Made by a program: the position numbers and the translations under genes
The notes under the pieces: generated by a model
Seen by the model: the letters and a program-made list of their open reading frames with translations, nothing else
What the model was told of the DNA's origin: nothing
Databases searched by the model: none
In this document: positions 22,605 through 62,956 of the stretch, piece after piece
Numbering within the stretch: the first letter of the stretch is position 1
How the letters are laid out: every line of letters begins with the position of its first letter
Source of the DNA: Paracholeplasma brassicae
GTDB taxonomy: Bacteria > Bacillota_I > Bacilli_A > Acholeplasmatales > UBA5453
Direction of reading: 5' to 3'
NCBI RefSeq assembly: GCF_000967915.1
Contig: NC_022549.1
Location: forward strand, 1,538,366 to 1,602,365
Length of the DNA stretch: 64,000 nt

Positions 22605-22833
22605 AAAACATCCCCTTTTCTTTCTTTCTATTATAAACAAAATGATACCTCAATGCACGCACTTTTTACATATTTTTACAAAATTACCTAAGTTTAAATG
22701 ACTTAATCAGGCGTTTTCACTCGTCTAGTACCTTATTTTCTTTTAAGTTGTATCTTTCTAACTTAGATGAATCTACTCGCTTAGTTAGATAGATGATTGA
22801 TCAAATGTATCAGTGATTAGCAAGTAGTCGATG

Positions 22834-22865
22834 AAAAACTGACGTTTTTAACTCCGTCAGTTTTT
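22834..22865 (-). terminator. Terminator of the giant-protein operon
   Basis: On the minus strand AAAAACTGACG and CGTCAGTTTTT form an 11-bp stem just after the stop at 22869. It is the only intrinsic terminator I see downstream of the five-gene block that starts at 58846. Confidence 0.8.
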
Positions 22866-22868
22866 ACC

Positions 22869-24632
22869 TCAATATTTTAGTTTTTTTAATGCCGCTTCAT
22901 TCTTACTTAAGACGAGCGCCTTTTCTTTTTCCAAACGTTTAATTGCGTTTTCTTTTTTCTTTTGTTCTTGAAGTTTCTTCTTTTCTAATTCTTTTTGTTT
23001 TTTCTGTTTCAGTTTTAGTCGTTCTTTTTCAAGTTTTAACTTCTTTTCTTCTCGAACTCGTTTTTTCTCTTTTTGGAGGTTTGATTCTAATTTCTTCTTT
23101 AGTTCTGCTAGGGCTCTTCGCTCTTTTGTGATTTGATCCGTGTATTTCTTTTGATCTTTGGTGATACGTTTTTTAATGTTTTGTTCGTACTTCTTTGATT
23201 CTTTATCAATGGTTTCTTTTAACTTTTGATTGGCTCTAGATTCGATGTCATCGATCAGTTCTTTTTGCTTAATAACCATCTCTTTAAACCATTTTTTTTC
23301 AAGCTCAACCGCTTCTTTGTAGTCTCTTTCTTTTACTTCTCTTAAGATTCTCGAAAGTTTTTGTTTCTCATACGCTTTATCAAGCGCTTTTTTAGGATCT
23401 TTTAAATCCACTAACCGGTTAAATACGTCTTGGTCTTGATTAACCTCAAGTTCCTTCCACGCGACGCGGTTGGTGATTTGAATTAGATCACTTAATGCGT
23501 CTTTGATGTATTTCTTTTGCTTGTCTTCTAACGTCTTGGTTTCTCTGACGTGTTTTTTAAATGTTTTTTCAACTTCTCTTAGAAAATACTCATTCATTTC
23601 TTGATTTTCAACAACGTAAGGCGTTGGATCAAGACTAAAAGTAGGTTCGATGTCTTCTAAACGCTTTGCCTGTGTTTTTTTAAACTTTGCCTTTTGATAA
23701 TTGCCCTCAAGTCGTTTTTCATTGTGATAGAATAGTGTCGAAAACAGTAAAAGAGACACTTTACTCAAATGATCTTGGTAGAGTTGATCAAACCGTTTTT
23801 GTCTAGACTCTTGTTCATATGAAAAATCAAGCGTGTAGGTCTTATCTAAATAAAGCCAAAGTAAATACGCATTTTTGAAATCCGTGTTTTTTAAAATAAT
23901 TTGCGTTTTAATGATGGGTGGAATGACTTTTTTGTGATGCTTTAGGGTTTTGATGAACGTCGAATTAAGTAAATTCGAGATGAGTTTATAGAGTCTTTGA
24001 GCGCGCTCAAGGACCATCAAGTTATGTTCATCTTCTTTTTTTTGACGATACGTCTCTTCGCTCGATAAATCAAAGGATAAGTTGATTTTTGATTCGTTGT
24101 ACCAAAACTCATTTACGACCTTTAACTGTGTGGTCCGTTTCGCGTAGAGTTCTTTTTCAATCAATCGAATCCGCTCTAAAACGTAATCACGTAGTCGGTA
24201 AGCTAAGGTCATGATGAAGCGGTTCTCGTAAATACCATAGTCGATGTCTGATAAATCCGATAACAGCTTTTCTGGTGTCACATTTTCCTCTTCATCAATC
24301 TCACTTATCAAATTCGTGTGCGAACTCAAATGTTTGATTGCCTCAGGTCCAACACGTTTGATTTTTTCAATCGGTAATATCTCAGACTCGTATTTGAGCT
24401 GAGATTTCATATTTCTCGTGATTTTATCGATGCTTGGGTAGTAAGCCTCAATGGTTTTTATCCAAGTATCGTCAAATTTTTTACGACTGATTTCTTGTTT
24501 TTGGTTGGTTAAATAAAGCCCTTGATAAAAGGATTCATAAAAATGGCTTGGAAAACTATGGTTTAATTCGTCTTCTTTTATGTGTGTGATTGCTTGTTCG
24601 TAGTATTGGTGTAAATCTAGTATTTCTTTCAT
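22869..24632 (-). CDS. DUF2357-like (McrC-side) protein with C-terminal coiled coil
   Basis: The 587 residues split in two. The first 400 are helical and hold IDYGIYENRFIMTLAYRLRD near 150-170, which resembles the DUF2357 region of McrC-type partners of McrB-like ATPases. The last 160 or so are almost entirely Lys, Glu, Arg, Gln and Leu with heptad spacing, a long charged coiled coil. No PD-(D/E)xK nuclease motif, the usual C-terminal domain of McrC-like proteins, is visible. Its ATG follows the AAA+ stop by one base, so synthesis is coupled to the ATPase. I infer a structural or adaptor partner of that ATPase, not a restriction nuclease. Confidence 0.7.
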   Translation of the reverse strand: MKEILDLHQYYEQAITHIKEDELNHSFPSHFYESFYQGLYLTNQKQEISRKKFDDTWIKTIEAYYPSIDKITRNMKSQLKYESEILPIEKIKRVGPEAIKHLSSHTNLISEIDEEENVTPEKLLSDLSDIDYGIYENRFIMTLAYRLRDYVLERIRLIEKELYAKRTTQLKVVNEFWYNESKINLSFDLSSEETYRQKKEDEHNLMVLERAQRLYKLISNLLNSTFIKTLKHHKKVIPPIIKTQIILKNTDFKNAYLLWLYLDKTYTLDFSYEQESRQKRFDQLYQDHLSKVSLLLFSTLFYHNEKRLEGNYQKAKFKKTQAKRLEDIEPTFSLDPTPYVVENQEMNEYFLREVEKTFKKHVRETKTLEDKQKKYIKDALSDLIQITNRVAWKELEVNQDQDVFNRLVDLKDPKKALDKAYEKQKLSRILREVKERDYKEAVELEKKWFKEMVIKQKELIDDIESRANQKLKETIDKESKKYEQNIKKRITKDQKKYTDQITKERRALAELKKKLESNLQKEKKRVREEKKLKLEKERLKLKQKKQKELEKKKLQEQKKKENAIKRLEKEKALVLSKNEAALKKLKY

Positions 24633-24633
24633 C

Positions 24634-26166
24634 TTAGAAGTTGTACTGCTTGATGTAATTTCTCAACATCTTCTTCGAATCCATAAATTGTGTTTTACCA
24701 AATAATTTATCCATCAAGACAATCAGTTCTTCTAATTCATTTTTTAAAAATGGCACGTTTAATGATTCGAACTTTCTTAAAATTTTACGACTAACCATGT
24801 AATCAAGCGCTTCTGTTTCATCCCCACCACAAGCCACATAAACCGGAATGAATTGGTTAATTTGTTTATTAATACGGTTACCAAACGCAATTTGAAATTT
24901 ATCGATAATAAAATCATCGAGTTTTTGTAGATTTTCTAATGTTTTTTCTGAGATATGATGATTGTCTTTAGCTTCATTAAATAGCCCACTAAGATAATCA
25001 AAACTCATTTTAACTGGTTCGGTATCGATTGCCTCAAAAAACGTCGCTTTATCGTTCATTTCGATTGAGGCCACGCGGTCATAAACCTTATCGGTAATCA
25101 TAAAGGTCGAGTCATCTTTGTTGGCTGTACCGATAAACCAAATGTTCTGCGGTATTTGTAGTTTGCCATCTTTTAAGTGAATTGGGTCTTCTGGTTTTTG
25201 GTCGGTAATTAAAGACACTTTCCACTCGTTTGGATTGGGCATTTCAAGTAAGCTTAGGAAATCGGCAAAATAATACTCCACACGTGCTAAGTTCATTTCA
25301 TCAAGCACGATAAAATTTAAATCAGAGCGATAAGTCGCTTCATAAACCGCCTTTAAGAACTCCGTTTCATTGAACTTCTTAGTAAATTCATTAAAATAAC
25401 CAAGCATCTCAGCGCGATCACGCCAAGAAGGTTGAACTGAGATAATGTCGGTATCGTTACTGAAAAATTTCCCCATTGCGTAAGCAAGTGAGGTTTTCCC
25501 TGTCCCTGAAATCCCCTCAAGAACCATTGTTTTTGATGAGGCCATCCCGGAAAAGAAAATTCTAGCGGTCTTATGCGAATAGTAAAGACCTAACTTGCTT
25601 GCCGAGAAATGAACGAAGCGGTCGACCAATCCTTCAAGATTGAGATGATCACTTTCTTTCATTATGGTTTTTAATACGTTGAACTTGTAGGTTTCATCCA
25701 CCGACAACAACAACGGAAATCGAACTTTTGTCCCTGTTTTTTGACTCATTTGTCTTGGGACATCGCCTCTTGTTTGATCCAAAGGCGCATCCGTTCGTGA
25801 TAAAGCGAGGATTGCATTTTTTTCATCCAGTAATGACTCAATCTCATAATTTAGAATAGAGACCTCGTGCAGTAATTCTTCTTTGTCTCTTTCTTTACTG
25901 ACAAACCGTATGTATCTTCTTAGCAGTTGGATGATTAGCACCGTAATTAGTGCACTAAGAAAGAATAGAATCAGTAAAGAAGGAATTGCGAATACCCAAT
26001 CAATGGAAGTAAACGTTTTTGATGCCACCATAAAATCCCTAATGTAATTGGTGATATCGATTACGAAGACCTGATGGAGTAAATCGAAAAACATCGAAAA
26101 TCCTTTTCCGATATTTGAAATGATCGTTTTAAATAGTTCAATGAACCATTGTGCAAATTGTTCCAT
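24634..26166 (-). CDS. Membrane-anchored McrB-like AAA+ ATPase
   Basis: The start is taken at ATG 26166, giving 510 residues; a TTG two codons upstream is possible. An amphipathic N-terminus and a clear transmembrane helix at about 55-82 (FAIPSLLILFFLSALITVLII) are followed by a short coiled segment. The AAA+ domain has Walker A GISGTGKTSL near 218-227, Walker B FIVLDEMNLARVEYYF near 286-301 and sensor 1 WFIGTANKDDSTF, with DRVASIEM behind it. The DEMNLARVEYYF/ANKDDS pattern belongs to the McrB/dynein-related branch, known for GTP-driven DNA restriction in McrBC. Here the membrane anchor and the operon with giant surface proteins point to a different job. It has no DNA-binding N-terminal domain. 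Confidence 0.82.
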   Translation of the reverse strand: MEQFAQWFIELFKTIISNIGKGFSMFFDLLHQVFVIDITNYIRDFMVASKTFTSIDWVFAIPSLLILFFLSALITVLIIQLLRRYIRFVSKERDKEELLHEVSILNYEIESLLDEKNAILALSRTDAPLDQTRGDVPRQMSQKTGTKVRFPLLLSVDETYKFNVLKTIMKESDHLNLEGLVDRFVHFSASKLGLYYSHKTARIFFSGMASSKTMVLEGISGTGKTSLAYAMGKFFSNDTDIISVQPSWRDRAEMLGYFNEFTKKFNETEFLKAVYEATYRSDLNFIVLDEMNLARVEYYFADFLSLLEMPNPNEWKVSLITDQKPEDPIHLKDGKLQIPQNIWFIGTANKDDSTFMITDKVYDRVASIEMNDKATFFEAIDTEPVKMSFDYLSGLFNEAKDNHHISEKTLENLQKLDDFIIDKFQIAFGNRINKQINQFIPVYVACGGDETEALDYMVSRKILRKFESLNVPFLKNELEELIVLMDKLFGKTQFMDSKKMLRNYIKQYNF

Positions 26167-26184
26167 AGTCAATTCTTCTTTCTT

Positions 26185-27552
26185 TTAGCGATTTTTTGAT
26201 ACATAAGGTTGTAGATCTTCTTTTCTGAGGCGTTTACTAACCACCTGAGATTGATAATAACTAATGTCTTTATACACAATGCTTTGATTGTGTGCTTTTT
26301 CGGTTACATTGGTCGAGACTATCTCAACCGTATTACCTAAATACGATTTGATTGGTTCATAGGCTTCTTTTAAAAGGTCTTGTCTGACTCGTAAGAAATC
26401 AATTTGAAGTTTACTCGTGTAATCGACGAGCTGTTGGACATCTGTTTGATGATCCATTGAAAGGTGATAGCCCAAGTTTTTTAGCGCCATCACATTTTTG
26501 ACTAACTTCACGTCAGTTGATTGGTTTTTAAGCAGTGGTACGTATAAAATGATCTTCCCACTGTCGTACTGATAACGTTTCACTTTTTCATCAATTAGAT
26601 AGACCGCATCCTCATGTCTTAATAATTCAAGAGACGTCGGTAGAAAAAAGTAGAACGTTTTGTTTTTAATTTGTTGATACAAATCAAAAATATCTTCTAA
26701 ACTTTGTTCTAATAATACGGTATTTAGCCAAAATGCGTCACCTGTTTCTTCAAGTAGAGGCATAAATTCAAAGAAATCTTTTTCTTCCTTGTTTTTTTCA
26801 TAAGTGTATTTGACATCAAAGCCATAACACTTATCTTCATAGGTATCAAAGATTGGTAGGTAACTACGCTTGATTGATCCTTCTTTGACAGCGTCTTTCA
26901 TTTCTTTATAGTACTTGAGCGTTTCTTCATTTTGGTTTAACTGTTCGTTATATAAGATGATTTGGTTCCCGTTTTCTCTTTTGCCATGATAAAGTGCCTG
27001 TTTTAGTTGTAAAAACAACCGATCAAATGTGACGTCTTCTTGGTTTCTAGTCATTCCAATGGTCACTTGTCTTTTAACATAAAGATCGTCTGTGATCTTC
27101 ATCTTTTTAGACGTTGCCTGTTGAAACTTAACGGCTAGGTTGTAGAGTAAGTCGTCACTTAAGAGTTCTGGTAAATAAATCAAGAACGTTTCTCTTTCTT
27201 TTGTTTGAGCGAACTTCGCGCCTCGCGGCAGACTCATTTGTATGGCTTTACCCACACTTAACAAATAAGAATAAACGCCTTCTTCTTCAATGTAGGTTGC
27301 GATTTGATCGAATTGATCAACCGATAAATACATCAATTGAAAGTGACTACCTTTTTGTTCTTTCTTGTGTTCAATTAATTTGATTAATTCTTCAAACGTT
27401 GTGATGTCGTTAATTGTTTCTAGTTTGTCTTTTAAGTATCTTTTTCGTTCGAGTTTGATTAAATAGACTAAAACGATGACTAATATCAGACAAAAGACGA
27501 GAATCACACTTGAATAGATGATGTTTTCAATCGTAGATGCGTAAACAAACAT
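26185..27552 (-). CDS. Membrane protein with degenerate GGDEF and EAL domains
   Basis: Residues 8-32 of 455 form a transmembrane helix, followed by a basic KLERKRYLKDK stretch. Residues about 45-205 align in pattern with a GGDEF domain (MYLSVDQFDQI, then VTIGMTRN, then ALYHGKRENGNQI), but the GGDEF loop reads TKERETFLIYL, so cyclase activity is not expected. Residues 215-450 follow an EAL fold (SYLPIFD, FYFFLPTSLELL, LQIDFLRVRQD), but EAL is replaced and the DD-type metal site reads MDHQTD. It is therefore probably a c-di-GMP receptor or purely structural. AAAGGAA precedes the ATG. It lies third in the operon, after a hairpin at 27586-27615. Confidence 0.78.
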   Translation of the reverse strand: MFVYASTIENIIYSSVILVFCLILVIVLVYLIKLERKRYLKDKLETINDITTFEELIKLIEHKKEQKGSHFQLMYLSVDQFDQIATYIEEEGVYSYLLSVGKAIQMSLPRGAKFAQTKERETFLIYLPELLSDDLLYNLAVKFQQATSKKMKITDDLYVKRQVTIGMTRNQEDVTFDRLFLQLKQALYHGKRENGNQIILYNEQLNQNEETLKYYKEMKDAVKEGSIKRSYLPIFDTYEDKCYGFDVKYTYEKNKEEKDFFEFMPLLEETGDAFWLNTVLLEQSLEDIFDLYQQIKNKTFYFFLPTSLELLRHEDAVYLIDEKVKRYQYDSGKIILYVPLLKNQSTDVKLVKNVMALKNLGYHLSMDHQTDVQQLVDYTSKLQIDFLRVRQDLLKEAYEPIKSYLGNTVEIVSTNVTEKAHNQSIVYKDISYYQSQVVSKRLRKEDLQPYVSKNR

Positions 27553-27585
27553 AATGGAATTCCTTTCTTTTTCATACAGTAGAGG

Positions 27586-27615
27586 CTTAGGTAGTGTCCT
27601 TTAACACTACCTAAG
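27586..27615 (-). other. Intercistronic hairpin without T-run
   Basis: CTTAGGTAGTGT and ACACTACCTAAG form a perfect 12-bp stem with a 6-base loop in the 66-bp gap after the 4167-aa gene. The minus-strand sequence beyond it (CCTCTACTG) has no U-tract, so it should not terminate efficiently. An mRNA-stability or processing element separating surface genes from cytoplasmic genes is the likely role. Confidence 0.65.
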
Positions 27616-27618
27616 TAA

Positions 27619-30600
27619 TTAGATAATGAGCCCACGTCTTGTGGTTTGTTTCTTATTTCTTGATAGTTTCACTAAGAAGAACGCTACTGTAATTACCCAC
27701 AATAGGAATGTAATAATTAATAATACCGATAATAGGTAGTCTGGTTGACTGTCTTTGGTAATTGAAAGTCTGTAATACATAATACTGCCGTCTTGTGCTT
27801 CAACTTTAATTAAGACTTCGTTTTTACCAACGTCTAATCGGTCTAGTTCAATGGAGAGTTCATTTGATTCACCTAAGTATTCATAGCCTAAAACCGATAC
27901 TTTTGCATTTGGTGAGAAACTTTGAGCCGATAGTTTAAGCGTTTCTTGTTTAGCACCAACCGACACTTGGTAATGATACATGCTTGGATTAAATGCTAAT
28001 TTTTTACCTTCAACAACAAGACTCGTTAATCTTGCGTCGGTATCCGATACACCATCTCTGGTTAGAAGAATGGTATAGATTTGCGACTGCAAGCCATCGG
28101 CAGAGACCACTTCAATCTCAATGGTTTTGGTTGGTTCACTTGTTTTAAACTCGTAGGTTCTAAACCCTTGAACACGTGCTCCGCTTTGTTGGTCCTCAGT
28201 CGTTCCGGTTAACCTAACGTATCTGGTTGAAACGTCGACTTTAACAACGTAGGAGAACGTTAGTTTATCAAACGAATTTTGATCAAAGTAGGTGATGCTG
28301 GTTTCTTCTTTATAGGTTTGTTCACTACTACCTTTAACGTAGAGTGAATCAAGTAGTGCGTTACTATCGACGTAATTGACCACCACCGTGTAGGTTTTAA
28401 TCTCTCCGTTTTGTGCAGTAACTAATAGATTAAAGACATTTTCACCCGGGTGTAGTTGTTTGTTTCCGACCCCTTGTATTTGTTGGTTTTCTTTTCCTTG
28501 CACATCAAGGTAAATACTGGTCTTATTTGGATTCATTGGTATTTGAATTAGGTAATTTGTCTTATTCGGATCAAAATCCTTTAAGGCCAATCCATCAATT
28601 AGAATTGAATCTAATAAGTTGTCTGTTTGTGCTTCTTGTTTGATGACATTAATCGTGTAAGTTTCACTGCTCGTAGTTCCACTCTTTGATGTTACTCTAA
28701 CCGTATAAGTCAGTTCATTTGTTTGACCAAACACTTTAATCCCTGCCCCGTAAACAATGCCGGTTGCGGTGACCATTAAATTCATGTTTTTCACATCGTG
28801 GGGCACATAAATGGTGTAGGTTTTAATCGATACGTCAAAGATACTTTGCGCATTTGATTGTGTGCCTAGATAGTTTAGCGAATTACTACCAAATAGATCC
28901 AACGTTTCAATCTCTGCTTGGTCGTCTAACACAATGCCACGATAGAAACTGATGGTGTATTCTTCAACAAGTCCACTTTCAGCCATGACTGAGACTTTAA
29001 TGATTGTATGATATAGTCCATCAACAAAACCACCAAGTAGCACATTACCAACCCCATAGACACTGGCGTTTTCGTTAGACGCTATGCCTTCAACAATCAC
29101 ACTGTTTAGATTTGTGCTTGCGTCTAGGTTAATCACGTAGTCTTTAATGTCTTTATTAAAAGGACTTGTAAATGACAGGATATTTCCGTTTTTATCTTTG
29201 ACCACAAGGTTTTCTAACGTTGTATCATCACTCGCTTCTGTTCGATAGACTTCGATTTGATAACGTTTACCTTCAAGACCGCTTTCTGAGGTCACATAGA
29301 TGCTAAATACGTTCGATCCAACCGCTAAGGATTTAACACCAAGCCCAGTGATTATTGAGGTGTTTTTTGCCTTACCTGTTATATTTACCATATTTACATC
29401 GTATGGCACTTCAACGATGTAGGTTAACGTGTTGACATCAAATATTGGGTCTAGATCGTAATTTTCGACCCCAAGCGCTAACAAGGTATTGTCGAAACTA
29501 AACGCATTGATGACAATTTGATAAACCTTCGATTCATTTGATTCTGAAACCACCGTTATGTTAATTGTGTTTTTTCCTCTTGTGATTGGCATATTGCCTA
29601 AATCACCACTTAGGGTTGATAAACCGTGGTTTTTTGTTGCTTGTACATGTAGCTGACTCACTTTGTCTGAATCAACTGTTAACTCATAGTTCGTGAGATT
29701 CGGATTAAACCCCTCAATTAATACCCCATTGATTTGAAGAGATTTCAGTGTATTATCCGAATTTGGTTCTTCTTTAATCACACGAATCACGTACGTGTCT
29801 GAGGTGACTTTTCCACTCTTAGAGACCAAGAAGAAGGCAATTAACACTTCATTTTCATTAATTATCTGCTCACCTGCGCCATAGACGGTTGCACCATTTT
29901 GGTTAGTTACTTGTAGTAACATACGTGAGGTTTGATAAGGCACCGTAATTTCATATTCCAATTGACTGGTTGTAAATTGCGTTAAGGCCATTGGATAGAC
30001 ATGGTTTCCTAGGAATAATGTGGTATTACCATAAAGCGATAACTCATCTATGGTGATGTCGTCATTTGGATCGATGTTTCTAGAGATTGTAATCACATAG
30101 GTGCGTTCACTCAACCCATCTTGTGCCGTTACAGTGACATTGAAACGATCGGTTGTCATACCTACACCACTTCTTAAGCTATGGATCCCATCGCCTTTAA
30201 CCATCGCACCTGCGTGATTTTTGGTTGCGATAATCTCAACTTCAATCACATCACTACGAAGTGTTAAATCTATCATATAGTTTAAGGTCGTTGGATTAAA
30301 TACTGGATCATAATCTAGGATGTCACCTGTTTTTGTGTCTTTAACCACTAAATCAGACAACAGATTATCCGTTGATGTTTTTAAGACTTGAACGTTGTAA
30401 GCTTTGGAATTTCCACTTTGTGAGGTAACAATGATGGTGTAGAGTTTTTCAGAACCAATCACTGAAACCACACCTAAGCCTGTGACTTTACTATTTGATG
30501 GCCATACGCCACCAAAGGTAATTTCACTCGTGTGTTCATTCACTGTAATTTCTTGATAGGTTTTGGTTTCATCTAAATCGTAACGAACCCCATTTTCGAT

Positions 30601-40122: not shown

Positions 40123-40135
40123 TTTATCTCCTCTA

Positions 40136-52100: not shown

Positions 52101-55100
52101 AATTGGAGTGTGTAGTCATACATCCCTGAAGACGCTTGAGTCGAAAAATGATCCGCTTCTAAATCAAGCCCGTCAAACCCAAATAAAATTTCACGTTCGA
52201 CACCCGTCACGTCACCACTGTTTTGTTCGTTACCCACCGAAAAACTCGGTTTGATGCCAACACTTGGTGTGTAGAATTCAATTAGCGTACGGTTATAATA
52301 TGAAGCACTAATTGTGCCGGCATTAAAGCCCAAAACACCGCCGACATAATTAGCCCCTGAGGTTTTACTTGAGCCATAGGTTTGACTAATCACACCATTG
52401 TTGTACCCGACGACACCACCAACGTAAGTGCCTGTTGAGATAACCTCACCCGTGTGATAAGCGTATTCTAAACTACCTAAAAGATGGCCAACCAACCCAC
52501 CCGTGTGATTAATCCCAGACACAGAAACGGTTGAATAAACCTCAGATAGCGCACCAGCCATATAACCAGCAAGACCACCAGTAGCATTACGCCCCTTAAC
52601 AACACCTGATACAGACACATTTCTGATGGTTGCCTCACTTGAGGCATATCCAAACAAACCGACGTAATTGTCTGTTTGATTAATATTCAGATTTATATTA
52701 GCAAACGCGCCATCAAAATGCCCTCTAAATGGTCGATCAAGCGCACCGATTGGTTTAAACCCTGTGTTTGCTAAGTCGAAAGATGAGAGATTTGAACCAA
52801 CCAAATAGTACGTATCAAGCGCACTAAAATCAGCCGTTATCGAATTAGATAGGTTGATTAAATCGCCTTCATTATTGATTAAATATGGACTATCTTTTGT
52901 CCCATCACCTAAGAACGGGTTCGTTCTAACCGATAACATCGACGCTTCTTTCACAGAGGTAATGGCACTACTTTCAAACGTTTTCAACTGAGGATAGTAC
53001 GCGTAATTACCTTCAATTGGGTAATACGTGAAATAGGTTTGACCTAACTTATCAATTAACCCTTCTGCAATCATTTGCGTTTTTAAAAGCGCACTCGCAG
53101 ATGGTGTTAGTGATGGGATATTATTTTTCGGTTTTTGATACCCTTGGTAGAGTGACGTATCATAATAAAGATTACTTCTAACGTTACCTGAGGCACTGTA
53201 GTTTTGAAGACTGTCTTGTCCAATGACCCCACCAACGTTGGTGTTTGATGAGACTAAGCCTGCGTTATATAGGTTACTCACATTATTATAAACATAAGTA
53301 GAATATGCAATTCGGATATAGCGGTAAGTGAATCCTAAGATACCACCAACCGAATCATTACCAACAATCTCTGCTCGGTTGTATCCATTTGATAAGGTGC
53401 CTTGGTATAAGAAACCAACAAGCCCACCAACATATGAACCAGTCGAGGTGATATCACCGTTATTATAGGTTTGATCAACCACACCAGCCTCATGACGACC
53501 GACGATACCACCAATGTAGTTTCTACCATTAATCACGGCCTCATTATATACATTTGAAATCGTCCCTGAAAGCTTATAGCCTACGACACCTGAGACGTAA
53601 TCCAGTCCCGTAACTGAACCAGATACAGATAAGTTTTTAATTGTCCCATGACCAAAATAGCCAAAGAGCCCTTGGTAACTAGCTGTACTATTAATATCTA
53701 AAATGAACTCCGCATGGTTTCCATCAAACGACCCAAAGAATGGTTTCGTACTTGAACCAATTGGAACGAAATTGCCTAAATCAAATTGGCTGATGCCATC
53801 ATCAACCTTAAAGAAAAAGCCTTTAAATGTGTTGCCTTTGTCGACCATTCGTTTTAATTCATCGATGTCTAGCTTGTCTTTAATTAAAAACGGAATATCC
53901 TCTGTACCTAAGCCTAAGCTTACATCGACTCTGACTGATTCAATTGAATTAGAAAGGATATCTTTTGTTTCGCTATTTCTAAATACGTTTAGTTGAGGGT
54001 AATAAGCCTCATTATCGGTCATCGCCTCAAAATAGAAAACATCACTCAATTTGGTGCTCATCTCTTTAAAGAACACACCACTATTGATACCTTGTGTTGA
54101 AGGATCAGTTGATGGTTTTGTCGTCTTCTTTTGATCGTAATTCGCGATCACCGTAATGTCATAGTAAAGATTGGTTCTTGGGTTATACCCACCACTATAT
54201 ACGGTTGGGTTATCATAACCAATCACCCCACCAGCGTAACTGTTTGCTGAAACGGTGCCTGAACTATAAACGTTATTGATGTTATTGTTTCGATACGTTG
54301 AGTAGTCGGTTCTTATCCCTAAATACGAATAGCCTACCACACCGCCAGCGTAAGAGGTTGCGATGACCTCACCACGGTTGTATGCCCCACTTAAAGTGGC
54401 ACGTTCTAATAAACCGGTGATGCCACCGGCATAAGAACCTGCCGCCTCAATGGTTGCTGTGTTATAAACATTTCTTAGGGTACCACTGTTTTGTTCACCA
54501 ACAATACCACCCACTCGGTTTAAACCTTTAACCGATCCTGATACCGAAAGATTTTCTATAATACCTGTACGAGTATAGCCGAAAAGACCTTGATAATTCA
54601 GGCCTGGGTTATCGATTGCTAAAATGAAGTTTGCGCCATTACCATCAAAGTTACCATCAAATGGTTTTGTATTTGAACCAATTGGGCTAAAATTACCCAG
54701 ATCGATTTCACTGATGCCATCATCAACCTTAAAGTGAAAACTGAAGTAGGTATTTCCTAAGGCAACTTTTCTTGAGAGTTCTTCCATGTCAAAGGCATCA
54801 CGAATGAGGAATGGAAACTCTTTTGTCCCTAGTCCATCACCCACATCATAAGCAGTTGATTGGTATGAATCATTTGAGATTCTTGTCTCACTATGATTTG
54901 AGAATGTAATCAATTGTGGGTAATATCCGGTTGTGCCATCTTTGGGTTCAAAGTGCCAAAGATTGGCGTTAAACCCTAAAGTGTCACTACTTGCGTAAAC
55001 CAGATCGCTTGTGGTTTTCCCATAAGCGTGTCCAGTTACCGGTGGTTTTGTAGTCTTTGGTTGATCGTAGGTCACTAAGACCGACGTATCATAATATAAG

Positions 55101-58100
55101 TTACTTCTGACGTTACCTGATGCTGTATAGTTTTGAAGGCTGTCTTGTCCAATGACCCCACCAACGTTGGTGTTTGATGAAACAAGACCACTACTATATA
55201 AGTTACTCACATTATTATAAACATAAGTAGAAGATGCAATTCGGATATAGCGGTAAGTGAATCCTAAGACACCACCAACCGAATCAATCCCAATAATCTC
55301 TGCTCGGTTGTATCCATTTGATAAGGTGCCTTGGTATAAGAAACCAACAAGCCCACCAACATATGAACCAGTCGAGGTGATATCACCGTTATTATAGGTT
55401 TGATCAACCACCCCAGCCTCATTACGACCAACAATACCACCAACAAAATTACGTCCTGTTAATATCGCTTCATTATATACATTTGATATCGTCCCTGAAA
55501 GCTTATAGCCTACGACACCTGAGACATAATCAAGTCCCGTAACTGAACCAGAGACAGATAAGTTCTTAATCTCACCATGACCAAAATAACCAAATAGTCC
55601 TTGGTAACTTAAACTACTATTAATATTTAAAATGAACTCCGCATGGTTTCCATCAAACGATCCAAAGAATGGTTTCGTACTTGAACCAATCGGAACGAAA
55701 TTACCTAAATCAAACTGGCTGATACCTTCATCAACCTTGAAGAAAAAGCCTTTAAATGTGTTGCCTTTGTCAATCATCGATTTTAAGTCTTCTATATCTT
55801 CATTCGTACGAATCAAAAATGGAAAACTTTCAGTCCCAAGTCCATCGCCAACGTCCACTTGTGCATTTAACTTGGAACGATTGACAATAGAAGCTTCTTC
55901 ATTGTCACTAAACACTTGTAATTCTGGGTAATACGCGAATCCACCCGATTCAGCTCTAAATGTAAAAGAGCTACTCAGTTTTTCACTCATCTCTTTAAAG
56001 AATACACCACTATTGATGCCTTGTGTTGAAGGATCAGTTGATGGTTTTGTTGTCTTCTTTTGATCGTAGTTCGCGATCACCGTAATGTCATAGTAAAGAT
56101 TGGTTCTTGGGTTATACCCACCACTATAAACCGTTGGGTTATCATAACCAATGACCCCACCAGCGTAACTGTTTGCTGTTACAGTACCAGAACTATAGAC
56201 GTTATTGATGTTATTGTTTCGATACGTTGAGTAGTCGGTCCTTATCCCTAAATAAGAATACCCTACCACACCACCCGCATAAGAGGTTGCGATTACCTCA
56301 CCACGGTTGTATGCCCCACTTAAAGTGGCACGTTCTAATAAACCGGTGATGCCACCGGCATAAGAACCTGCCGCCTCAATGGTTGCTGTGTTATAAACAT
56401 TTCTTAGGGTACCACTGTTTTGTTCACCAACAATACCACCCACTCGGTTTAAGCCTTTAACCGATCCTGATACCGAAAGGTTTTCTATAATACCTGTACG
56501 TGTATAGCCGAAAAGACCTTGATAATTCAGGCCTGGGTTATCGATGGCTAAAATAAAGTTTGCGCCATTACCATCAAAGTTACCATCAAATGGTTTTGTA
56601 TTTGAACCGATTGGACTAAAATTACCCAGATCGATTTCACTGATGCCATCATCAACCTTAAAGTGAAAACTGAAGTAGGTATTTCCTAAGGCAACTTTTC
56701 TTGAGAGTTCTTCCATGTCAAAGGCATCACGAATGAGGAATGGAAATTCTTTAGTTCCTAGACCATCACCCACATCATAAGCAGTTGATAGGTACGAATC
56801 GTTTGAAATCCTTGTCACACTGTGTGCCTCAAATGACTTTAATTGAGGGTAGTATGCCACATCTTCTACTTTCTCAATGTATGACCAAATAGAGGAAGAT
56901 AGACCAAGTGTATCAGGTGTTCCATAAAGTAATTCACTCGAGGTTTTCCCATAAGCGTGTCCAGTCACTTCTGGTTTAAGATTTTTTGGTTGATCGTAGG
57001 TCACTAAGACCGACGTATCATAATAAAGATTACTTCTAACGTTACCTGAGCCACTGTAATTTTGAAGACTGTCTTGTCCAATGACCCCACCAACGTTGGT
57101 GTTTGATGAGACTAAGCCTGCGTTATATAGGTTACTCACATTATTATAAACATAAGTAGAATATGCAATTCGGATATAGCGGTAAGTGAATCCTAAGATA
57201 CCACCAACCGAATCATTACCAACAATCTCTGCTCGGTTGTATCCATTTGATAAGGTGCCTTGGTATAAGAAACCAACAAGCCCACCAACGTAAGAACCAG
57301 TAGAGGTAATGTCACCATTGTTATAGGTTTGATCAACCACACCAGCCTCATGACGACCGACGATACCACCAACGTAGTTTCTACCGTTAATCACGGCTTC
57401 GTTATACACATTTAAAATGGTGCCTGAAAGTTTATAACCCACAACACCAGAGATGTAATCCAGTCCCGTAACTGAACCAGATACAGATAAGTTTTTGATT
57501 GTCCCATGACCAAAATAACCAAATAGTCCTTGGTAACTTAAACTACTATTAATATTTAAAATGAACTCCGCATGGTTTCCATCAAATGATCCAAAGAATG
57601 GTTTCGTACTTGAACCAATCGGAACAAAGTTTCCAAGACTAAAACTACTTCTACCGTCGGCGACTTTAAAGAAAAAGCCAAGGTAGGTCTCACCTGTATT
57701 TATTTGATTTTTTAGGTTTTCAATGTCCGTCACTGTTTTAATTAAAAACGGTTTGTTTTCTGTACCTATCCCATTGGTTGTATCAACAGTAACAAACTCA
57801 TTAGAATTCGCTTGAACATTCGAATTAGGACTCTCATTAAAATATTTTAACTCAGGATAAAAACTGAAATTACCCGTTGAATCTCTAAAAGTAAAGGTTT
57901 GATTTAATCTTGTAGACATACCCGTAAACATAACGCCACTATTAACACCTTGCCCACTTTGCGTGGTTGAGGGTTTAAGTGTTTTTGGTTGTTTATAGTT
58001 TGCTATGACAGTCACGTCATAGTAGATGTTATTTCTTGGGTTATTGCCACCACTGTAGACCGTTGGGTTATCATAACCAATGACCCCACCGGCATTAGAG

Positions 58101-58846
58101 TTTGCCGAGACAAGCCCACTAGAGTAAACGTGTGTGATTGAATTGTTTCTGTAAGTTGAATAGTCCGTTCTTATCCCTAAATAAGAATACCCAACGACCC
58201 CACCAGCATTAGCAACCGCAGTTACTTCACCTCGGTTGTAAGCAGAGGTTAACGTCCCACGCTCTAAAAGACCAATAATCCCACCAGCATGAGACCCAGT
58301 TGAATCAATTCTTGCCGTGTTGTAGACGTTTCTTACCTGTCCTGAGGCCAAATACCCAAGAACACCACCAACGTAATTTCTGCCTTTAACCGTTCCTGAA
58401 ACAGAAAAGTTCTCTAAAATGCCTGTCCTTAAATAGCCAAAAAGCCCTTGATAATCAAGCGCTTCTTTTGTTTGGTCTAAAATGAAATTAACACCATAAC
58501 CATCAAAATAACCATCAAATGGTTTGGTGTTTGAACCGATTGAAATAAAGTCGCCTAAATAAATTTCGGATAACGTCGCATCCACGGTAAAATACTTGCC
58601 AGCAAATGTGTTACCCTGAGAAACAAGTAAAGAAAGCTGATCCATATCTGCTTTCGATCCAATCACGTATGGGTTATCAAATGTCCCCGCCTCACTTAAA
58701 AAAACGGTCGCATACTGAGGGCTGCGTCGTTTGACTTCAATTACCTCAGATGATTTACTCGTTTGGGCAACGAAAAACGCCACGAAAGATAGCGTGATAA
58801 TAAGCCCAACAAAACCCTTTAATAATTTCATGAAGTTTTTACTCAT
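40136..58846 (-). CDS. Giant secreted protein: GLUG modules, InlB/Flg_new repeats, C-terminal dockerin
   Basis: This protein has 6236 residues. Residues 1-28 are a signal peptide (KLLKGFVGLIITLSFVAFFV). Residues about 45-4360 hold 13 modules of 300-430 residues. Each starts with GxG(T/S)xxxPFLI, then a F-D-G-x-F-D-G loop, then several GLUG-type repeats (VGGxVGY...YNxAxI, PF07581) that probably fold as a beta-helix. Residues about 4365-6010 hold about 24 repeats of 65-75 residues (RYYTVTFLDG...YxFxGWD, InlB B-repeat/Flg_new, PF09479). The last 67 residues are a dockerin: GDINGDGIINVLD is a canonical calcium loop, INEDDLINVLD a weaker second. No membrane anchor or LPXTG motif is present, so surface retention would need the dockerin. 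AGGAG precedes the ATG. Confidence 0.88.
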   Translation of the reverse strand: MSKNFMKLLKGFVGLIITLSFVAFFVAQTSKSSEVIEVKRRSPQYATVFLSEAGTFDNPYVIGSKADMDQLSLLVSQGNTFAGKYFTVDATLSEIYLGDFISIGSNTKPFDGYFDGYGVNFILDQTKEALDYQGLFGYLRTGILENFSVSGTVKGRNYVGGVLGYLASGQVRNVYNTARIDSTGSHAGGIIGLLERGTLTSAYNRGEVTAVANAGGVVGYSYLGIRTDYSTYRNNSITHVYSSGLVSANSNAGGVIGYDNPTVYSGGNNPRNNIYYDVTVIANYKQPKTLKPSTTQSGQGVNSGVMFTGMSTRLNQTFTFRDSTGNFSFYPELKYFNESPNSNVQANSNEFVTVDTTNGIGTENKPFLIKTVTDIENLKNQINTGETYLGFFFKVADGRSSFSLGNFVPIGSSTKPFFGSFDGNHAEFILNINSSLSYQGLFGYFGHGTIKNLSVSGSVTGLDYISGVVGYKLSGTILNVYNEAVINGRNYVGGIVGRHEAGVVDQTYNNGDITSTGSYVGGLVGFLYQGTLSNGYNRAEIVGNDSVGGILGFTYRYIRIAYSTYVYNNVSNLYNAGLVSSNTNVGGVIGQDSLQNYSGSGNVRSNLYYDTSVLVTYDQPKNLKPEVTGHAYGKTSSELLYGTPDTLGLSSSIWSYIEKVEDVAYYPQLKSFEAHSVTRISNDSYLSTAYDVGDGLGTKEFPFLIRDAFDMEELSRKVALGNTYFSFHFKVDDGISEIDLGNFSPIGSNTKPFDGNFDGNGANFILAIDNPGLNYQGLFGYTRTGIIENLSVSGSVKGLNRVGGIVGEQNSGTLRNVYNTATIEAAGSYAGGITGLLERATLSGAYNRGEVIATSYAGGVVGYSYLGIRTDYSTYRNNNINNVYSSGTVTANSYAGGVIGYDNPTVYSGGYNPRTNLYYDITVIANYDQKKTTKPSTDPSTQGINSGVFFKEMSEKLSSSFTFRAESGGFAYYPELQVFSDNEEASIVNRSKLNAQVDVGDGLGTESFPFLIRTNEDIEDLKSMIDKGNTFKGFFFKVDEGISQFDLGNFVPIGSSTKPFFGSFDGNHAEFILNINSSLSYQGLFGYFGHGEIKNLSVSGSVTGLDYVSGVVGYKLSGTISNVYNEAILTGRNFVGGIVGRNEAGVVDQTYNNGDITSTGSYVGGLVGFLYQGTLSNGYNRAEIIGIDSVGGVLGFTYRYIRIASSTYVYNNVSNLYSSGLVSSNTNVGGVIGQDSLQNYTASGNVRSNLYYDTSVLVTYDQPKTTKPPVTGHAYGKTTSDLVYASSDTLGFNANLWHFEPKDGTTGYYPQLITFSNHSETRISNDSYQSTAYDVGDGLGTKEFPFLIRDAFDMEELSRKVALGNTYFSFHFKVDDGISEIDLGNFSPIGSNTKPFDGNFDGNGANFILAIDNPGLNYQGLFGYTRTGIIENLSVSGSVKGLNRVGGIVGEQNSGTLRNVYNTATIEAAGSYAGGITGLLERATLSGAYNRGEVIATSYAGGVVGYSYLGIRTDYSTYRNNNINNVYSSGTVSANSYAGGVIGYDNPTVYSGGYNPRTNLYYDITVIANYDQKKTTKPSTDPSTQGINSGVFFKEMSTKLSDVFYFEAMTDNEAYYPQLNVFRNSETKDILSNSIESVRVDVSLGLGTEDIPFLIKDKLDIDELKRMVDKGNTFKGFFFKVDDGISQFDLGNFVPIGSSTKPFFGSFDGNHAEFILDINSTASYQGLFGYFGHGTIKNLSVSGSVTGLDYVSGVVGYKLSGTISNVYNEAVINGRNYIGGIVGRHEAGVVDQTYNNGDITSTGSYVGGLVGFLYQGTLSNGYNRAEIVGNDSVGGILGFTYRYIRIAYSTYVYNNVSNLYNAGLVSSNTNVGGVIGQDSLQNYSASGNVRSNLYYDTSLYQGYQKPKNNIPSLTPSASALLKTQMIAEGLIDKLGQTYFTYYPIEGNYAYYPQLKTFESSAITSVKEASMLSVRTNPFLGDGTKDSPYLINNEGDLINLSNSITADFSALDTYYLVGSNLSSFDLANTGFKPIGALDRPFRGHFDGAFANINLNINQTDNYVGLFGYASSEATIRNVSVSGVVKGRNATGGLAGYMAGALSEVYSTVSVSGINHTGGLVGHLLGSLEYAYHTGEVISTGTYVGGVVGYNNGVISQTYGSSKTSGANYVGGVLGFNAGTISASYYNRTLIEFYTPSVGIKPSFSVGNEQNSGDVTGVEREILFGFDGLDLEADHFSTQASSGMYDYTLQLTTFKTNVNATIRNNSAVSVRLIRFASGSGDAANPYLIRHEEDMMVLSEVSKEDSLTGLYFKVMDGVETLDLTKEGINFYAIGSNTRRFKGHFDGNHATFILSLTYTTSDYQGLFGFVESGSIKNLRVEGNLSGRDYLGGVVGYSLNSSLSQVSSHVMVTGRNYVGGLVGQLSNSSLKESYQFSNVLSTGSRVGGLVGHADKSTIDDVYNYGNVHGVSYVGGLFGSLELNSKLSYAYNRGNISSTSSYIGGLIGYLNQSHINQTYSAGLVRGLNNVGGLVGFQAGTSSTFDSYYDTSIIEADGRTTLSSPIRAISNVLDQENVVGVGKSYLTGLNQLTLDKTVFLLQENDGIHAYYPRLQVFESSDLIKEESLISVESYLFAGLGTNESPYILVNAYDMKLLSNLVNGGEAFNDTYFKVRNNATLFDLTLTGLDYQSIGTSQNKFNGYFDGRGIEFRLDLSQGDDTGLFGYVGIDANLENFSVTGKVVGNNNTGAVAGYLEGILSNVYSTADVLGNEAVGGLVGFNEGIIKNAYVINQTVGVSFVGGLVGYQLGQLSDTYAVSEIYGIDAVGGVIGYNSGLVSGSYYNEEIATLKSKEGYINATSAISNEENQSTVLGLTSAQMHEGTLVNFSFSDSSKWVALAPNGFEIYYPQLNVFAKSSNQVIKDASIDSVKHMRFKTGTGSETDPYIIYNEDDMKALSELIVSRNTMKGLFFKVSPSVDFIDLSVFGSNYVPIGNQTYPFEGSFDGSFAKFMIDINRSAYYQGLFGYIGRNGVVRNLSVDGLVRSGSRFSGGIAGRNAGLIENVYNQAEVISYDYYAGGISGYNDGVILNSYNEGNIQVERYDYAGGITGALSKDARIEDVYQTGLIKGRSYIGGLVGFASGSVKRGYNIGEVTGVSYLGALIGNVDQNAITEAIYYDQSVLNAQTGVKPSRAISTQADNGSVKGLSSSELSGGYLEHATLGSSFKTTTNKGYVIYHPQLRVFSDNSNISIKEASLSSVTRSLFQGLGTIESPYLIMSNQDLVSLSLLVNDGYDTLSTHFSVYEENLVFDLTSNGFKPIGGLIPFDGQIDFANSTITLRLEEEKDNVGLFGSISQSAKVSNVLTSGYVSGLNYVGGVVGYNEGILFNTSNDAQIYAQSYAGGLVGYHLGDLSESYNHGNVNASQSYAGGITGHQGPNTTISHVYNKGSVSSSQNSAGITPYLGLNSSLVQSFNYGLVTASTKNAAGLVLHNFGEIYQSYHTGHITTNSHAAGLVLINEGTIDETFVSGLIETRTNGAGLVLENLGVINNSYYDLDRVNTQKGSNTYLTISSAIGNELETQSVKGLKLPQMTGLTAIGTNDEQMNLTLSEYERLSGNDFTSYYPQLSYFSKHSNPTMKADSLESVKDQTLQGDGTKLSPYLVKDAFDLMIIHTFLENENHFLGKYFEVAPGVTVIDTTVEGVYYQPLGNDENAFRGQFDFNGINVILNQSRSNDDYLGLFHTIGKDGLVKNLNTSGEILGRSYLGGIAGRNFGKIENVSNYVKIDSLGTTTDGANAIGGVVGVNYGTITNARNFGSISAQGSYIGGIVGENEGVITNSSNHKEIKGDAQVGGITGLNRFEVSKSYNKALVTGVTVTGGIAGENRGSISESYNDGIISASGDISGGIAGLQNDSSGRITGVYHSGKVSSKETISGGIVGKLDAGYLTDAYVSGLVFSKTELGFVVGQTLGGQINNAYYDQLLLASTDDTLSTPTKAIGNYELADSNNLRGLFHGQMVSQSSIGTHPHQLNFSNGSLFSTKPSVQKEAYYPELTYFKNSQLEFVKADSHQSVTTTTFVVGQGTKDDPYIIKDESDVILLFETTNSGNDYEGIYFKVSEDTDGFDFTRSDLGYYFNAIGTKTNPFNGHFDGNGSNFHLNLVKTEDYQGLFGYLGTYGFVTSLSVSGKITGKDYTGGIVGYNDGAIEQVYNQAEVTGSNNTGGIAGYNAGSILYTYNKGRIVGKNYTGGVVGFLANTLSDSYNIGVVYGTSAVGAIAGYLDEMHAYNSYYDTRILGAYRDFDGLIKPTRAVSNSSNSNSVYGLDKAYMTGLSSIGTGNLKMNLNQTVFQTNFNTSGENYPQLVVFSKHQSDTVRALSFESTSTTLYKVHYDYQDADDNNDVLFSYVLENEHYQLQIPFKFGFELEGWYVLEENSEPTKITVRDAKSIEPFDHNKDIYVSANYQIAMHLVRFIDGNNQVIHEETIAHGDYISQTDLIPLKNQSLTKIYEFESWLFDFDQMITKPVDIKANFTEIDRYYQLTFLDGDGNFFTTQKVEYGTQADVPLQIPSKRFDSFAYEFMGWDFNFNESIKQAYTIMPIFKEVPRYYTINFRNDDGSLIQSSQVEYLKDAIKPEIDPTKASSVDKHYTFNGYDQDVTSIKENLEVYATYLEEDRYYEVTFLDGNFKRFETQQVKYFEQAVEPSGLPRKDPFGPYAYKFIGWDKTFDRIEGDLVVQALFEEIDRYYTVSYVDGNGLPFGETYEVEYLSEAPRPDGIPEKEQTVSHTYVFSHWDEAYLMIKEDTVIEPIFIENLRPYTVTFMDGNNQVYETKEVLYGKEATMPVGVPRKQAVGEVAYQFVSWNESLKDVREDRIITSSFVEVDRYYTVTFYGYDLNLILKQQRVEYLDSATAPTPPVRTDSREAYEYVFMGWDKDFSSITSDLVVKATYINRIRTYEVTVINGDETTTHVVNHGSNFNLPSPIKTGNEQYSYEFSHWVVGSEVVTSLTNIKENVVIEAIFEASYHYYVVTFLDGDLNILEVQHVLKGNDAIAPSLTPKKEKTDEFIYLFKGYDRGFSDISSDLTIKALFDEVDRYYVVNFYDAFDQLFYTEIVEYGNKASTVLVPEKPKDEQYHYVFIGFSEDSSFVNKNLDLYPMYQEELNEFIVNFYNGDNEIVLTQRVLYGMASTPPKEVSKTPSETIYYLFNRFDKENLSSVTSDLDVYPIFDEVARYYKVSFVHERLGVETLLFEQIVEYQKDAYNPIDLIPFDVIDEETIFAATGLEGSLLNIKEDRTIYVLFDEIPRYYTVSYFDYDMSLIKEERVSYLSDGILPQGPFSKPSTELYRYVFDGFDQDVTKVKKDIITYAVYQELNNQFEVTFLDGDGKVFDEQIVLFGKDAIRPNGIPLKTPSNEFSYTFIGYEDYLTNVQENRIIKALFKQEVRRYTVIFVDEFDQVLKEEFVQFGHKATAPEVIILPEDTAEYRYSYQFDRSFDSIYEDTKVTVLIIEEKNEYTYTFFDSEGNIYKEIHAPYGTTINIPNGPTKETDEQFIYTFIGFDQNVPLIITENLEFHPVYDSETRTFKVTYLDGNHNVFYEDYVSYGLDGILPTGIPEKAENDQYYYVFRMWGSRPVSVKNDLTIEAVFSRFLQSYTVTFVDEFGNTIKKQDVLYGTGATEPTFDLIPTKPPTTEYEYIFAGWDKSFNYITKDIEVQVRYVPVLRLYTYTFYDEDHTTILKQEKGRYGSVIISPSVPFKEGTGSTEFRFVGWDKTVPNQLTYSIEFYAVFEEVPVTFKVYFYDGNGFVLDLQIVEYSKAANTPVRVPTRVMTERYEYLFEGYDKDYNEVYSDLHIYPIFKEEIRRFTVTFIYDTYEIDLIKKHNEAVDFDLDPIPTPLRDGFGFVKWDQELTSIKKDVEVRPIFRPNKYQIVYYAFDVDGGGLESEVITYGSEVSLSEANFTKRGYQFSGWKTSPDSEVILYPNGANFVYETAGNLELYAAFDPIVYEVTYDTDGGNEIPSDPYTIENPLKVLPVPTKEDHKFIGWELVEIKEDLNEKEVLGRQVKRAQTGQTIITEIEDGTIGFITLKARYVYDGYLVLKEEFHDTLSLVYAEITTIIPIEKREESTLPVYLIGLVINETLADLKNKFINDSIEFLDHESNPVTDLSLVIYTGLQIVLRDSEGQIKDRVRVVLKGDINGDGIINVLDYNTLNLHVASKVEIKPEMLLAALINEDDLINVLDLNKLQQYVSGRATQLG
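40139..40337 (-). other. Dockerin domain at the C-terminus of the 6236-aa protein
   Basis: Residues about 6170-6236. The first repeat KGDINGDGIINVLDYN matches the F-hand calcium loop of type I dockerins (D-x-N-x-D-G). The second, INEDDLINVLDLNKL, keeps the helix residues but not every calcium ligand. Dockerins bind cohesins on partner proteins. Confidence 0.75.
53030..58790 (-). repeat. Three tandem in-frame repeats of 1929 bp in the 6236-aa gene
   Basis: Landmarks recur exactly 1929 bp apart (53201/55130/57059 and 54063/55992), that is 643 codons. Each unit is a pair of modules: one with YSYLGIRTDYSTYRNN, the next with TYRYIRIAxSTYVYNN. Many stretches of over 100 bp are identical between the second and third unit. 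Modules 7-13, further downstream, are diverged. Confidence 0.9.
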
Positions 58847-58886
58847 TTGGCAATTCTCCTATTTAAATAACGTCTTACTTATCTAA

Positions 58887-58915
58887 ATGATAACACTAAA
58901 ACGCTTTTATGTCAT
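58887..58915 (-). promoter_or_regulatory. Promoter of the giant-protein operon
   Basis: ATGACA (58915-58910), a 17-base spacer and TATCAT (58892-58887) on the minus strand; each hexamer is one base off consensus. The leader to the ATG at 58846 would be about 35 nt and contains AGGAG. I find no operator-like palindrome beside it. Confidence 0.65.
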
Positions 58916-59464
58916 CATTTTTTTGAAAAAAAGACGAAATATATATATATTTAACGTAAAATCGCTTCATTAAGTCATGTCATAGAATGACAATAAAATT
59001 AATAAGTTAATATAATAAAAAATGTATTATAAACAAAATAATCGTATTTTGAAATGTCACTTTATATTTTTAGTGATTTCACTTTCATAAACCTTAGTAA
59101 GTTGAATTATGTAAAAATGAAGAAAAACACATACTTTAATAATAATCTTCTACTCAATACCAATTCATATTCGATACCATATACCTACAACATTTCTTGT
59201 AATTTACTCTATATTCTAGCGCACGGTAAAAGAGACATGTTAATATCAACACGACAAAAGATGATTCGCCTAATTATTTAGATGACTTATTAATATCGGT
59301 TAAGCCTAATCACATTGATTGTTAATGAAATTAAAAATTGACTCTTTGAAGCTGTCTCATTTTTCTTTACTTATTATGAAACAAAATATGATTGTATCTA
59401 GTGTTCTAAAAATTAGTAAAACTCGTTAACTGAGGGTTTTAGCTTGGTAATATTCTATTCACGA
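58916..59464. other. AT-rich noncoding region upstream of the giant operon
   Basis: I see no convincing gene. It includes an (AT)n run near 58939-58951. A 75-codon plus-strand frame at 59054-59281 has a biased, low-complexity composition and no ribosome-binding site. The segment GAGACAGCTTC on the minus strand near 59350 recalls the end of an insertion sequence but has no matching partner here. Confidence 0.4.
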
Positions 59465-59671
59465 CTACACAAAAATTGGTCGATATTTGGTGATTTTTTC
59501 AATCGATTGATATTTATAAATCTTCAGTCTATGACGAAATTGCTTGTTAACCCTTTTCTTCATTTCATTTAAAGGTGACTAGTCATTTGTGCGATTCATA
59601 AGATATGGTCCATCAAACGATTGTTTTTCATCGGTACAATTAGATTCATAATTACATTTCAAGAGTGTTTC
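59465..59671 (-). pseudogene. Decayed reading frame, possibly a transposase remnant
   Basis: One minus-strand frame from 59671 to the stop at 59467-59465 reads as 68 codons with one internal TAG after NRTND. It contains CNYESNC, then FDGPYLMNRTND, then MKKRVNKQFRHRLKIYKYQS and KYRPIF. Spaced Cys residues followed by a basic region recall C-terminal ends of IS1182-type transposases, but the match is weak. Upstream stops and the lack of a start mark it as broken. Confidence 0.25.
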
Positions 59672-59983: not shown

Positions 59984-60012
59984 AAAAAAGCCATTAAAAT
60001 TAATGACTTCTT
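59984..60012 (-). terminator. Terminator of trhO
   Basis: AAGTCATTAA-tttt-AATGGCTT hairpin with a T-run on the minus strand, just after the stop at 60023. Confidence 0.75.
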
Positions 60013-60022
60013 AGCATTCGAT

Positions 60023-62951: not shown

Positions 62952-62956
62952 CAAAC

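Follow-up and report, generated by a model that had tools for sequence, protein, structure and literature searches.

A 64,000-nucleotide stretch of the Paracholeplasma brassicae chromosome (NC_022549.1, positions 1,538,366 to 1,602,365; hereafter the window) carries a five-gene operon of 36 kb on its minus strand (22869-58915), which on balance probably encodes a surface fibre together with a membrane-bound, McrBC-like nucleoside triphosphatase (NTPase) that assembles, retains or releases this fibre by way of the C-terminal tail of the second gene product. In the mechanism proposed here, the gene 2 protein would be held in the membrane by a C-terminal helix, with about 30 cadherin-like domains extending outward and a cohesin domain at the tip, and the secreted gene 1 protein would clip onto that cohesin by its C-terminal dockerin, its Flg_new stalk and GLUG-repeat region forming the outer part of a single fibre some 10,400 residues long. 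On the cytoplasmic side, a membrane-bound McrB-like ring of gene 4 protein, activated by the McrC-like coiled-coil protein of gene 5, would engage the hydrophobic end of the gene 2 tail, and nucleotide hydrolysis would drive the assembly, retention or release of the fibre; gene 3, whose GGDEF-EAL protein is catalytically dead, may supply a regulator or scaffold. One membrane-anchored cohesin/dockerin fibre is suggested because gene 1 has a dockerin and gene 2 has both a cohesin fold and a membrane anchor. The fibre half of the mechanism is supported by this anatomy, and the fibre-managing half, in which genes 4 and 5 recognise the tail, a ring forms and the NTPase works in a given direction, is what we infer from the linkage of the genes, the intact NTPase motifs and the motif at the end of the gene 2 tail. 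The McrBC branch concerned, cohesins and dockerins, and GGDEF-EAL proteins are all known, whereas no description was found of their combination, of a giant cargo, of a cohesin-dockerin joint in a Mollicute or of the tail motif.

Operon conservation and the two giant proteins

The open reading frames (ORFs) called on the minus strand are five in a row and intact, from gene 1 (6236 aa) to gene 5 (587 aa), and are numbered here in the order of transcription. The same five genes are found in the same order in ten genomes (that of the window, G004, G028, G032, G034, G041, G043, G044, G045 and G049), which include Acholeplasma laidlawii PG-8A (G032), A. oculi (G043) and A. palmae (G045); the AAA protein of G004 is identical to a Paracholeplasma vituli protein. 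The intergenic gaps of the orthologous operons are small or overlapping, with the exception of 237 bp in A. oculi, and in G003, G007, G046, L086 and L089 the set is cut by contig ends with nothing contradictory. When the gene 1 C-terminus was used as a probe against 160 genomes of the order, 12 genomes were matched at E<1e-29, with gene 2 adjoining where flanks were readable. The gene 2 N-terminus reached 5 of the 160 only, being the poorer probe because of its fast divergence. An earlier sequence-only reading of this DNA had made conserved linkage, as against scattered homologues, the touchstone of its operon, and the order was held in all ten genomes with readable flanks. As the cultivable A. 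laidlawii PG-8A carries the operon, the proposal is directly testable.

Gene 1 (40136-58846, minus strand) encodes a 6236-aa secreted giant that has a signal or transmembrane segment at its N-terminus and is covered for the most part by GLUG-type repeats, with Flg_new repeats as well and a dockerin at the C-terminus. Its sole hydrophobic segment (aa 5-23; 58778-58834) is, by hydropathy and sequence, a predicted signal peptide, and the best-scoring Flg_new (Listeria-Bacteroides) repeat (40913-41107; family E 2.4e-22) lies in a tract before the C-terminus. The dockerin (40163-40330; Dockerin_1 E 2e-4) scores 27.8 bits, above the curated cut-off, is the only such dockerin in the genome, and is matched by solved dockerins of the Protein Data Bank (PDB) at E 7e-8. 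Type I dockerins have a pair of EF-hand-like calcium loops (DxNxDGxxNxxD), of which the first is intact in the window (GDINGDGIINVLD) and present in all aligned orthologs, and the second is well preserved in G034 and in part in the window. Long gene 1 orthologs in G028, G004 and G032 are 40-45% identical, that of G028 (6124 aa) at 45% over its full length. A dockerin ends gene 1 in every ortholog read, and none was found in any of the sister loci examined (loci built around relatives of gene 4 with other cargo, described below). A lone genomic dockerin leads one to expect a partner, and the neighbouring gene 2 starts with a cohesin-fold domain. Open frames of 12,480 to 17,173 codons, belonging to another family of the order (G035:C3, G027:C8, G124:C1, G152:C11 and G031:C4), weakly resemble the C-terminal region of gene 1, either the dockerin part or the region before it.

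Gene 2 (27619-40122, minus strand) encodes a 4167-aa giant with a signal peptide, a cohesin-fold domain, 30 Cadherin-like beta-sandwich stretches, a C-terminal transmembrane helix and a short charged tail. AlphaFold2 was run on the mature gene 2 N-terminus and seven orthologs, and the model of the N-terminal domain (aa 25-200; 39523-40050) has a predicted local distance difference test score (pLDDT) of 74 and a predicted template modelling score (pTM) of 0.75. When this model was compared with the PDB by Foldseek, the top 21 matches were all cohesin or cohesin-dockerin/scaffoldin entries (best E 2.8e-6, prob 1.00), and gene 2 thus probably begins with a beta-sandwich of the cohesin (jelly-roll) fold. 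At the other end, hydropathy marks a transmembrane helix (aa 4126-4144; 27691-27747) that aligns in the orthologs and is followed by a charged tail, variable and some 15 residues long, that closes with the motif LII-COOH (27622-27630; hydrophobic-Ile-hydrophobic). Isoleucine stands at position -2 in 12 of 13 orthologs, and the same 12 have a large hydrophobic residue at -1; position -3 is mostly Leu or Met, and positions -4 to -13 vary and are charged. The endings read LII, MIV, NII, LIF, MII, VIF and LIY, with NII of P. vituli the single motif-bearing ending that lacks a hydrophobic residue at -3. Conservation of the extreme cytoplasmic C-terminus implies a cytoplasmic reader, for which the adjacent membrane AAA+ protein of gene 4 and its partner from gene 5 would be the natural candidates.

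That the cohesin and dockerin pair in the cell is suggested by their adjacency and conservation. As in cellulosomal and non-cellulosomal cohesin-dockerin systems, a dockerin loop and a candidate cohesin fold are divided between one secreted and one anchored protein. The present pair differs in that it would join two giant adhesin-like proteins on a wall-less cell, in that the operon has no glycoside hydrolase, and in that the cohesin lies beyond sequence detection. No literature was found on cohesin or dockerin in Acholeplasma, or on these giants. Several observations weigh against the fibre and its management as proposed. The cohesin assignment comes from one predicted structure, based on eight sequences, with the pLDDT given above and TM scores of about 0.5-0.7; Pfam cohesin (PF00963) gave nothing over cut-off in the genome or in the gene 2 orthologs, and no PDB sequence was significantly matched by a profile of the cohesin region. 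The second calcium loop of the window dockerin is without its first Asp. If the N-terminal segment of gene 1 were an uncleaved anchor, cohesin and dockerin could meet between cells instead. In addition, A. oculi has the operon but no tail motif in gene 2, and the reader of the tail might be some factor other than the AAA ring.

The layout of the operon largely agrees with the sequence-only reading, which had described five same-strand ORFs with gaps of 13, 66, 18 and 1 bp. The gaps measured from gene 1 to gene 5 are 13, 66, 12 and 1 bp, the third becoming 18 bp when gene 4 is started at its ATG. The terminator it had placed at 22834-22865 is confirmed by an intrinsic hairpin (22830-22868, minus strand) that folds at -15.1 kcal/mol (z -4.4), with 0 of 200 shuffles folding as well; this hairpin had been overlooked by a pattern scan because its loop is 10 nt long. 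Within genes 3-5, the coding strand showed no site resembling a terminator. The promoter it had claimed is present as a motif of the putative sigma-70 type (58887-58915, minus strand; ATGACA-17-TATCAT with a TG before the -10, matching the consensus at 10 of 12 positions), but this AT-rich region has no more sites of the kind than chance would give (49 found against 60.5 expected), and the promoter is therefore taken as plausible. Upstream of the operon, an AT-rich stretch of 1.1 kb (58916-60022) has no annotated ORF and is unusually long for its gene-dense surroundings.

The McrBC-like pair and its sister loci

Genes 4 and 5 and their sister loci appear to fit the CoCoPALM branch of McrBC systems, which was named in PMC11090510 with its treatment deferred to a later paper. 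The main text of that source gives no cargo, mechanism or Mollicute example for CoCoPALM, and no follow-up was found in a literature search. Gene 4 (24634-26172, minus strand) encodes a McrB-like AAA+ NTPase of 512 aa from a TTG start, or 510 aa from the ATG at 26166, with a Walker A motif (GISGTGKT), a Walker B motif (LDEMN) and an NxD motif in the form NKDD. The sequence N-[KNRQ]-D-[DE] is present in 97/97 aligned AAA rows, in agreement with the CoCoPALM signature of NxD followed by D or E; NKDD alone would fit NxxD too, and the invariant Asp is assigned to position 3 rather than 4 because one row reads NRDE. The intact Walker motifs together with the NxD motif in every row therefore indicate an NTPase under selection. 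For the FtsB-like transmembrane helix and coiled coil of CoCoPALM, gene 4 has an N-terminal transmembrane helix (aa 53-71) and a helical charged stretch, with no FtsB/DivIC family match. Gene 5 (22869-24632, minus strand) encodes the 587-aa McrC-like DUF2357 protein (E 2e-7, over the curated cut-off), which has a YENR core and, by sequence, a long Lys/Glu-rich helical C-terminus that is coiled-coil-like, as in the McrC homologs of CoCoPALM.

The window operon shares with CoCoPALM the NxD-bearing McrB-like NTPase, whose N-terminal membrane helix and helical stretch are a candidate for the FtsB-like region, and the long coiled-coil McrC/DUF2357 protein, and its sister loci have the linked signal peptidases. 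It differs in its two giants, which bear the cohesin and the dockerin, in its dead GGDEF-EAL protein and in the absence of any small AWF-signal protein. No linked signal peptidase was found in the window operon or its orthologs either, for which reason the window type is filed as a derived CoCoPALM offshoot and not as a plain member. The sequence-only reading knew of no described system with this gene set, and the combination was indeed not found described, but the ATPase/DUF2357 pair has the features of a named branch (PMC11090510). Its GLUG, Flg_new, cadherin-like and DUF2357 domains were all recovered in domain searches, and its McrB-type AAA+ is seen in the motifs of gene 4, although Pfam AAA matches were sub-threshold. 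The gene 1 dockerin, the cohesin-fold N-terminus of gene 2 and the GGDEF-EAL domains of gene 3 had not been recognised.

Gene 4 has relatives in 32 of 41 related genomes and, across named genomes ranging from Acholeplasmatales to Clostridia, at no fewer than 463 loci. Gene order was read in 80 sister loci, and in most of them two GGDEF-EAL proteins (about 860 and about 475 aa) are followed by small AWF-signal proteins, a SipW-type signal peptidase (NCBIfam E 9e-29), AAA, DUF2357, a second SipW, more small secreted proteins and a large protein. The gene immediately before AAA encodes SipW in 48 of 55 sister loci, and the NTPase family thus travels with secretion and surface genes; DUF2357 comes immediately after AAA in 58 of 70 loci. 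The genome of the window, A. brassicae, has a sister locus of its own (G000:C1:1026000-1048348; L021:6000-13123, L022:1-8348), with SipW-type peptidases, AWF-signal proteins, AAA and DUF2357. In a tree of 97 AAA proteins, the window type forms a single clade with an SH-aLRT support of 97 (one change on the tree), itself nested within the sister types of Acholeplasmatales; the simplest reading is that the giants' operon arose once, the giants replacing a SipW/small-protein cargo.

The sister loci share with the Bacillus SipW-TasA/TapA (CalY) matrix fibre operon their SipW-type peptidases and small secreted proteins with a TasA-resembling AWF signal. The likeness is suggestive only, since the best fold match of the small proteins, the TasA fibre 8aur, is weak (E 0.055, prob 0.23), and Pfam TasA/camelysin gave no match for them. 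To our knowledge, the Bacillus operon has no McrBC pair and no giants, and no literature linking McrB-type NTPases to SipW/TasA loci was found. The large last gene of the sister loci, taken by eye for a GLUG protein, was dropped as such, Pfam giving no match; in the own-genome locus this gene seems split into frames of 550 and 1782 aa, by a frameshift or a sequencing error. In some sister loci the AAA gene has no adjacent DUF2357 (L063/L050 of Peloplasma aerotolerans, L069, L071-L074, L076, L077, L079, L080, L082, L091 and L110). A second Peloplasma locus about 15 kb on does have DUF2357, and one DUF2357 protein may serve two AAA rings.

Gene 3 and competing explanations

Gene 3 (26185-27552, minus strand) encodes a 455-aa membrane protein with a degenerate GGDEF domain (aa 53-197; Pfam 8.7e-7) and a degenerate EAL domain (aa 218-396; Pfam 5.5e-10), both above cut-off, preceded by one N-terminal transmembrane helix with no outside sensor domain. 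The EAL catalytic set is kept in 0 of 9 window-type gene 3 proteins, nearly all of its residues being lost, as opposed to the sister-locus GGDEF-EAL proteins, in which the Glu of EAL is kept in 36 of 40. Gene 3 is therefore predicted to be a pseudo-enzyme, LapD-like by analogy and not by membership. LapD is a degenerate GGDEF-EAL receptor that controls a giant adhesin (PMC3032553), and gene 3 likewise is a membrane protein of this kind adjoining giant adhesins, which could make it a receptor for cyclic di-GMP (c-di-GMP) and the whole set something like the Lap giant-adhesin switch. This account, which is compatible with the managed fibre preferred here, would fit with the canonical GGDEF (RYGGDEF) diguanylate cyclase near the own-genome sister locus (G000:C1:1051670-1052809; L022) and with an intact-EAL protein at that locus; the cyclase in itself indicates a capacity for c-di-GMP signalling in a wall-less bacterium. 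It is nonetheless improbable, as the loss of EAL residues makes c-di-GMP binding by gene 3 doubtful, the protein has no outside sensor, and the operon showed no protease of the LapG type. The set also differs from LapD/LapA in lacking an outer membrane and in the addition of the AAA+ pair.

The main uncertainty is whether the NTPase is specific to the fibre or serves general membrane or secretory traffic. An adhesive fibre could be real while the NTPase and its partner do a general job, such as membrane-protein insertion, quality control or the secretion of very long chains. The same NTPase family is found at loci with very different cargo (small AWF-signal proteins and SipW), both kinds of cargo are secreted, and the job may therefore be the export or folding of any surface cargo. 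Such an account is rather unlikely, since the NTPase has been duplicated and has diverged together with its cargo, the window-type clade being linked to giants wherever flanks are readable, which suggests a cargo-specific role, and since the conserved gene 2 tail motif needs a reader. A role of the giants in powering or guiding gliding, with the AAA+ as motor or gatekeeper, follows from the parallel drawn by the sequence-only reading with Mycoplasma mobile. What invites it is that the cell is wall-less and that its giant surface proteins are predicted to share a transcript with an NTPase, but domain searches returned no gliding-protein family, the domains being adhesive repeats with cohesin and dockerin, and the parallel is not supported here beyond protein size. 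We know of no report of gliding in Acholeplasma. The related, wall-less Peloplasma aerotolerans, which carries sister-type loci, is described as non-motile (PMC11122141), which also counts against gliding, and this explanation is accordingly regarded as very improbable.

Another possibility is that genes 4 and 5 are a McrBC-type system of the ordinary kind, directed against phage, whose only connection with the adhesins is a shared transcript. The pair is McrB/McrC-like and bears the CoCoNuT-branch NxD motif, DUF2357 is the N-terminal domain of McrC, and gene 4 matches the PADLOC candidate-defence model PDC-M26A at E 2e-42; E. coli McrBC, a type IV restriction system, has the same AAA+ family and DUF2357 activator. 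The operon pair differs from it in being membrane-bound, with no DNA-binding domain found and no nuclease motif. Conserved D-ExK nuclease residues were absent across 74 DUF2357 proteins, and domain searches recognised no nuclease in the window operon or in the annotated own-genome sister operon. Given the lack of a conserved nuclease motif, the surface cargo that is central to both types of locus and the anchoring of gene 4 in the membrane, phage defence was rejected as the main explanation and is held to be highly unlikely. A separate pair in the same genus, an 891-aa AAA and a 519-aa DUF2357 protein (L027; G003:C4, about 132.6-136.8 kb), fits defence better and is perhaps nearer to a classical McrBC/PDC-M26A defence candidate.

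The preferred reading remains a surface fibre managed by the membrane NTPase. The sequence-only reading had held that the giants form a surface fibre, an idea that the cohesin/dockerin pair and the membrane anchor strengthen and that is still a prediction, and that the AAA+ and its coiled-coil partner move, assemble or regulate it, which is consistent with the sister loci, the coupling itself staying a proposal. More tentative is the possibility that the McrBC-type pair acts on the giant's cytoplasmic C-terminal tail, and not on nucleic acid, driving assembly, retention or release of the fibre as a new class of membrane motor evolved from restriction machinery. With the managed fibre, the CoCoPALM-type branch of McrBC NTPases, which has a name but no explanation, would gain a concrete cargo and an equally concrete candidate for the motif it recognises, and would be tied to surface structures instead of nucleic-acid defence. 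The fibre would also include a probable cohesin-dockerin joint between two giants in cell-wall-less Mollicutes, for which no earlier report was found. Elsewhere in the window, 61068-62960 encodes a 630-aa protein in which a Glycoside hydrolase family 3 domain is fused to an AraC-type helix-turn-helix (HTH) domain.

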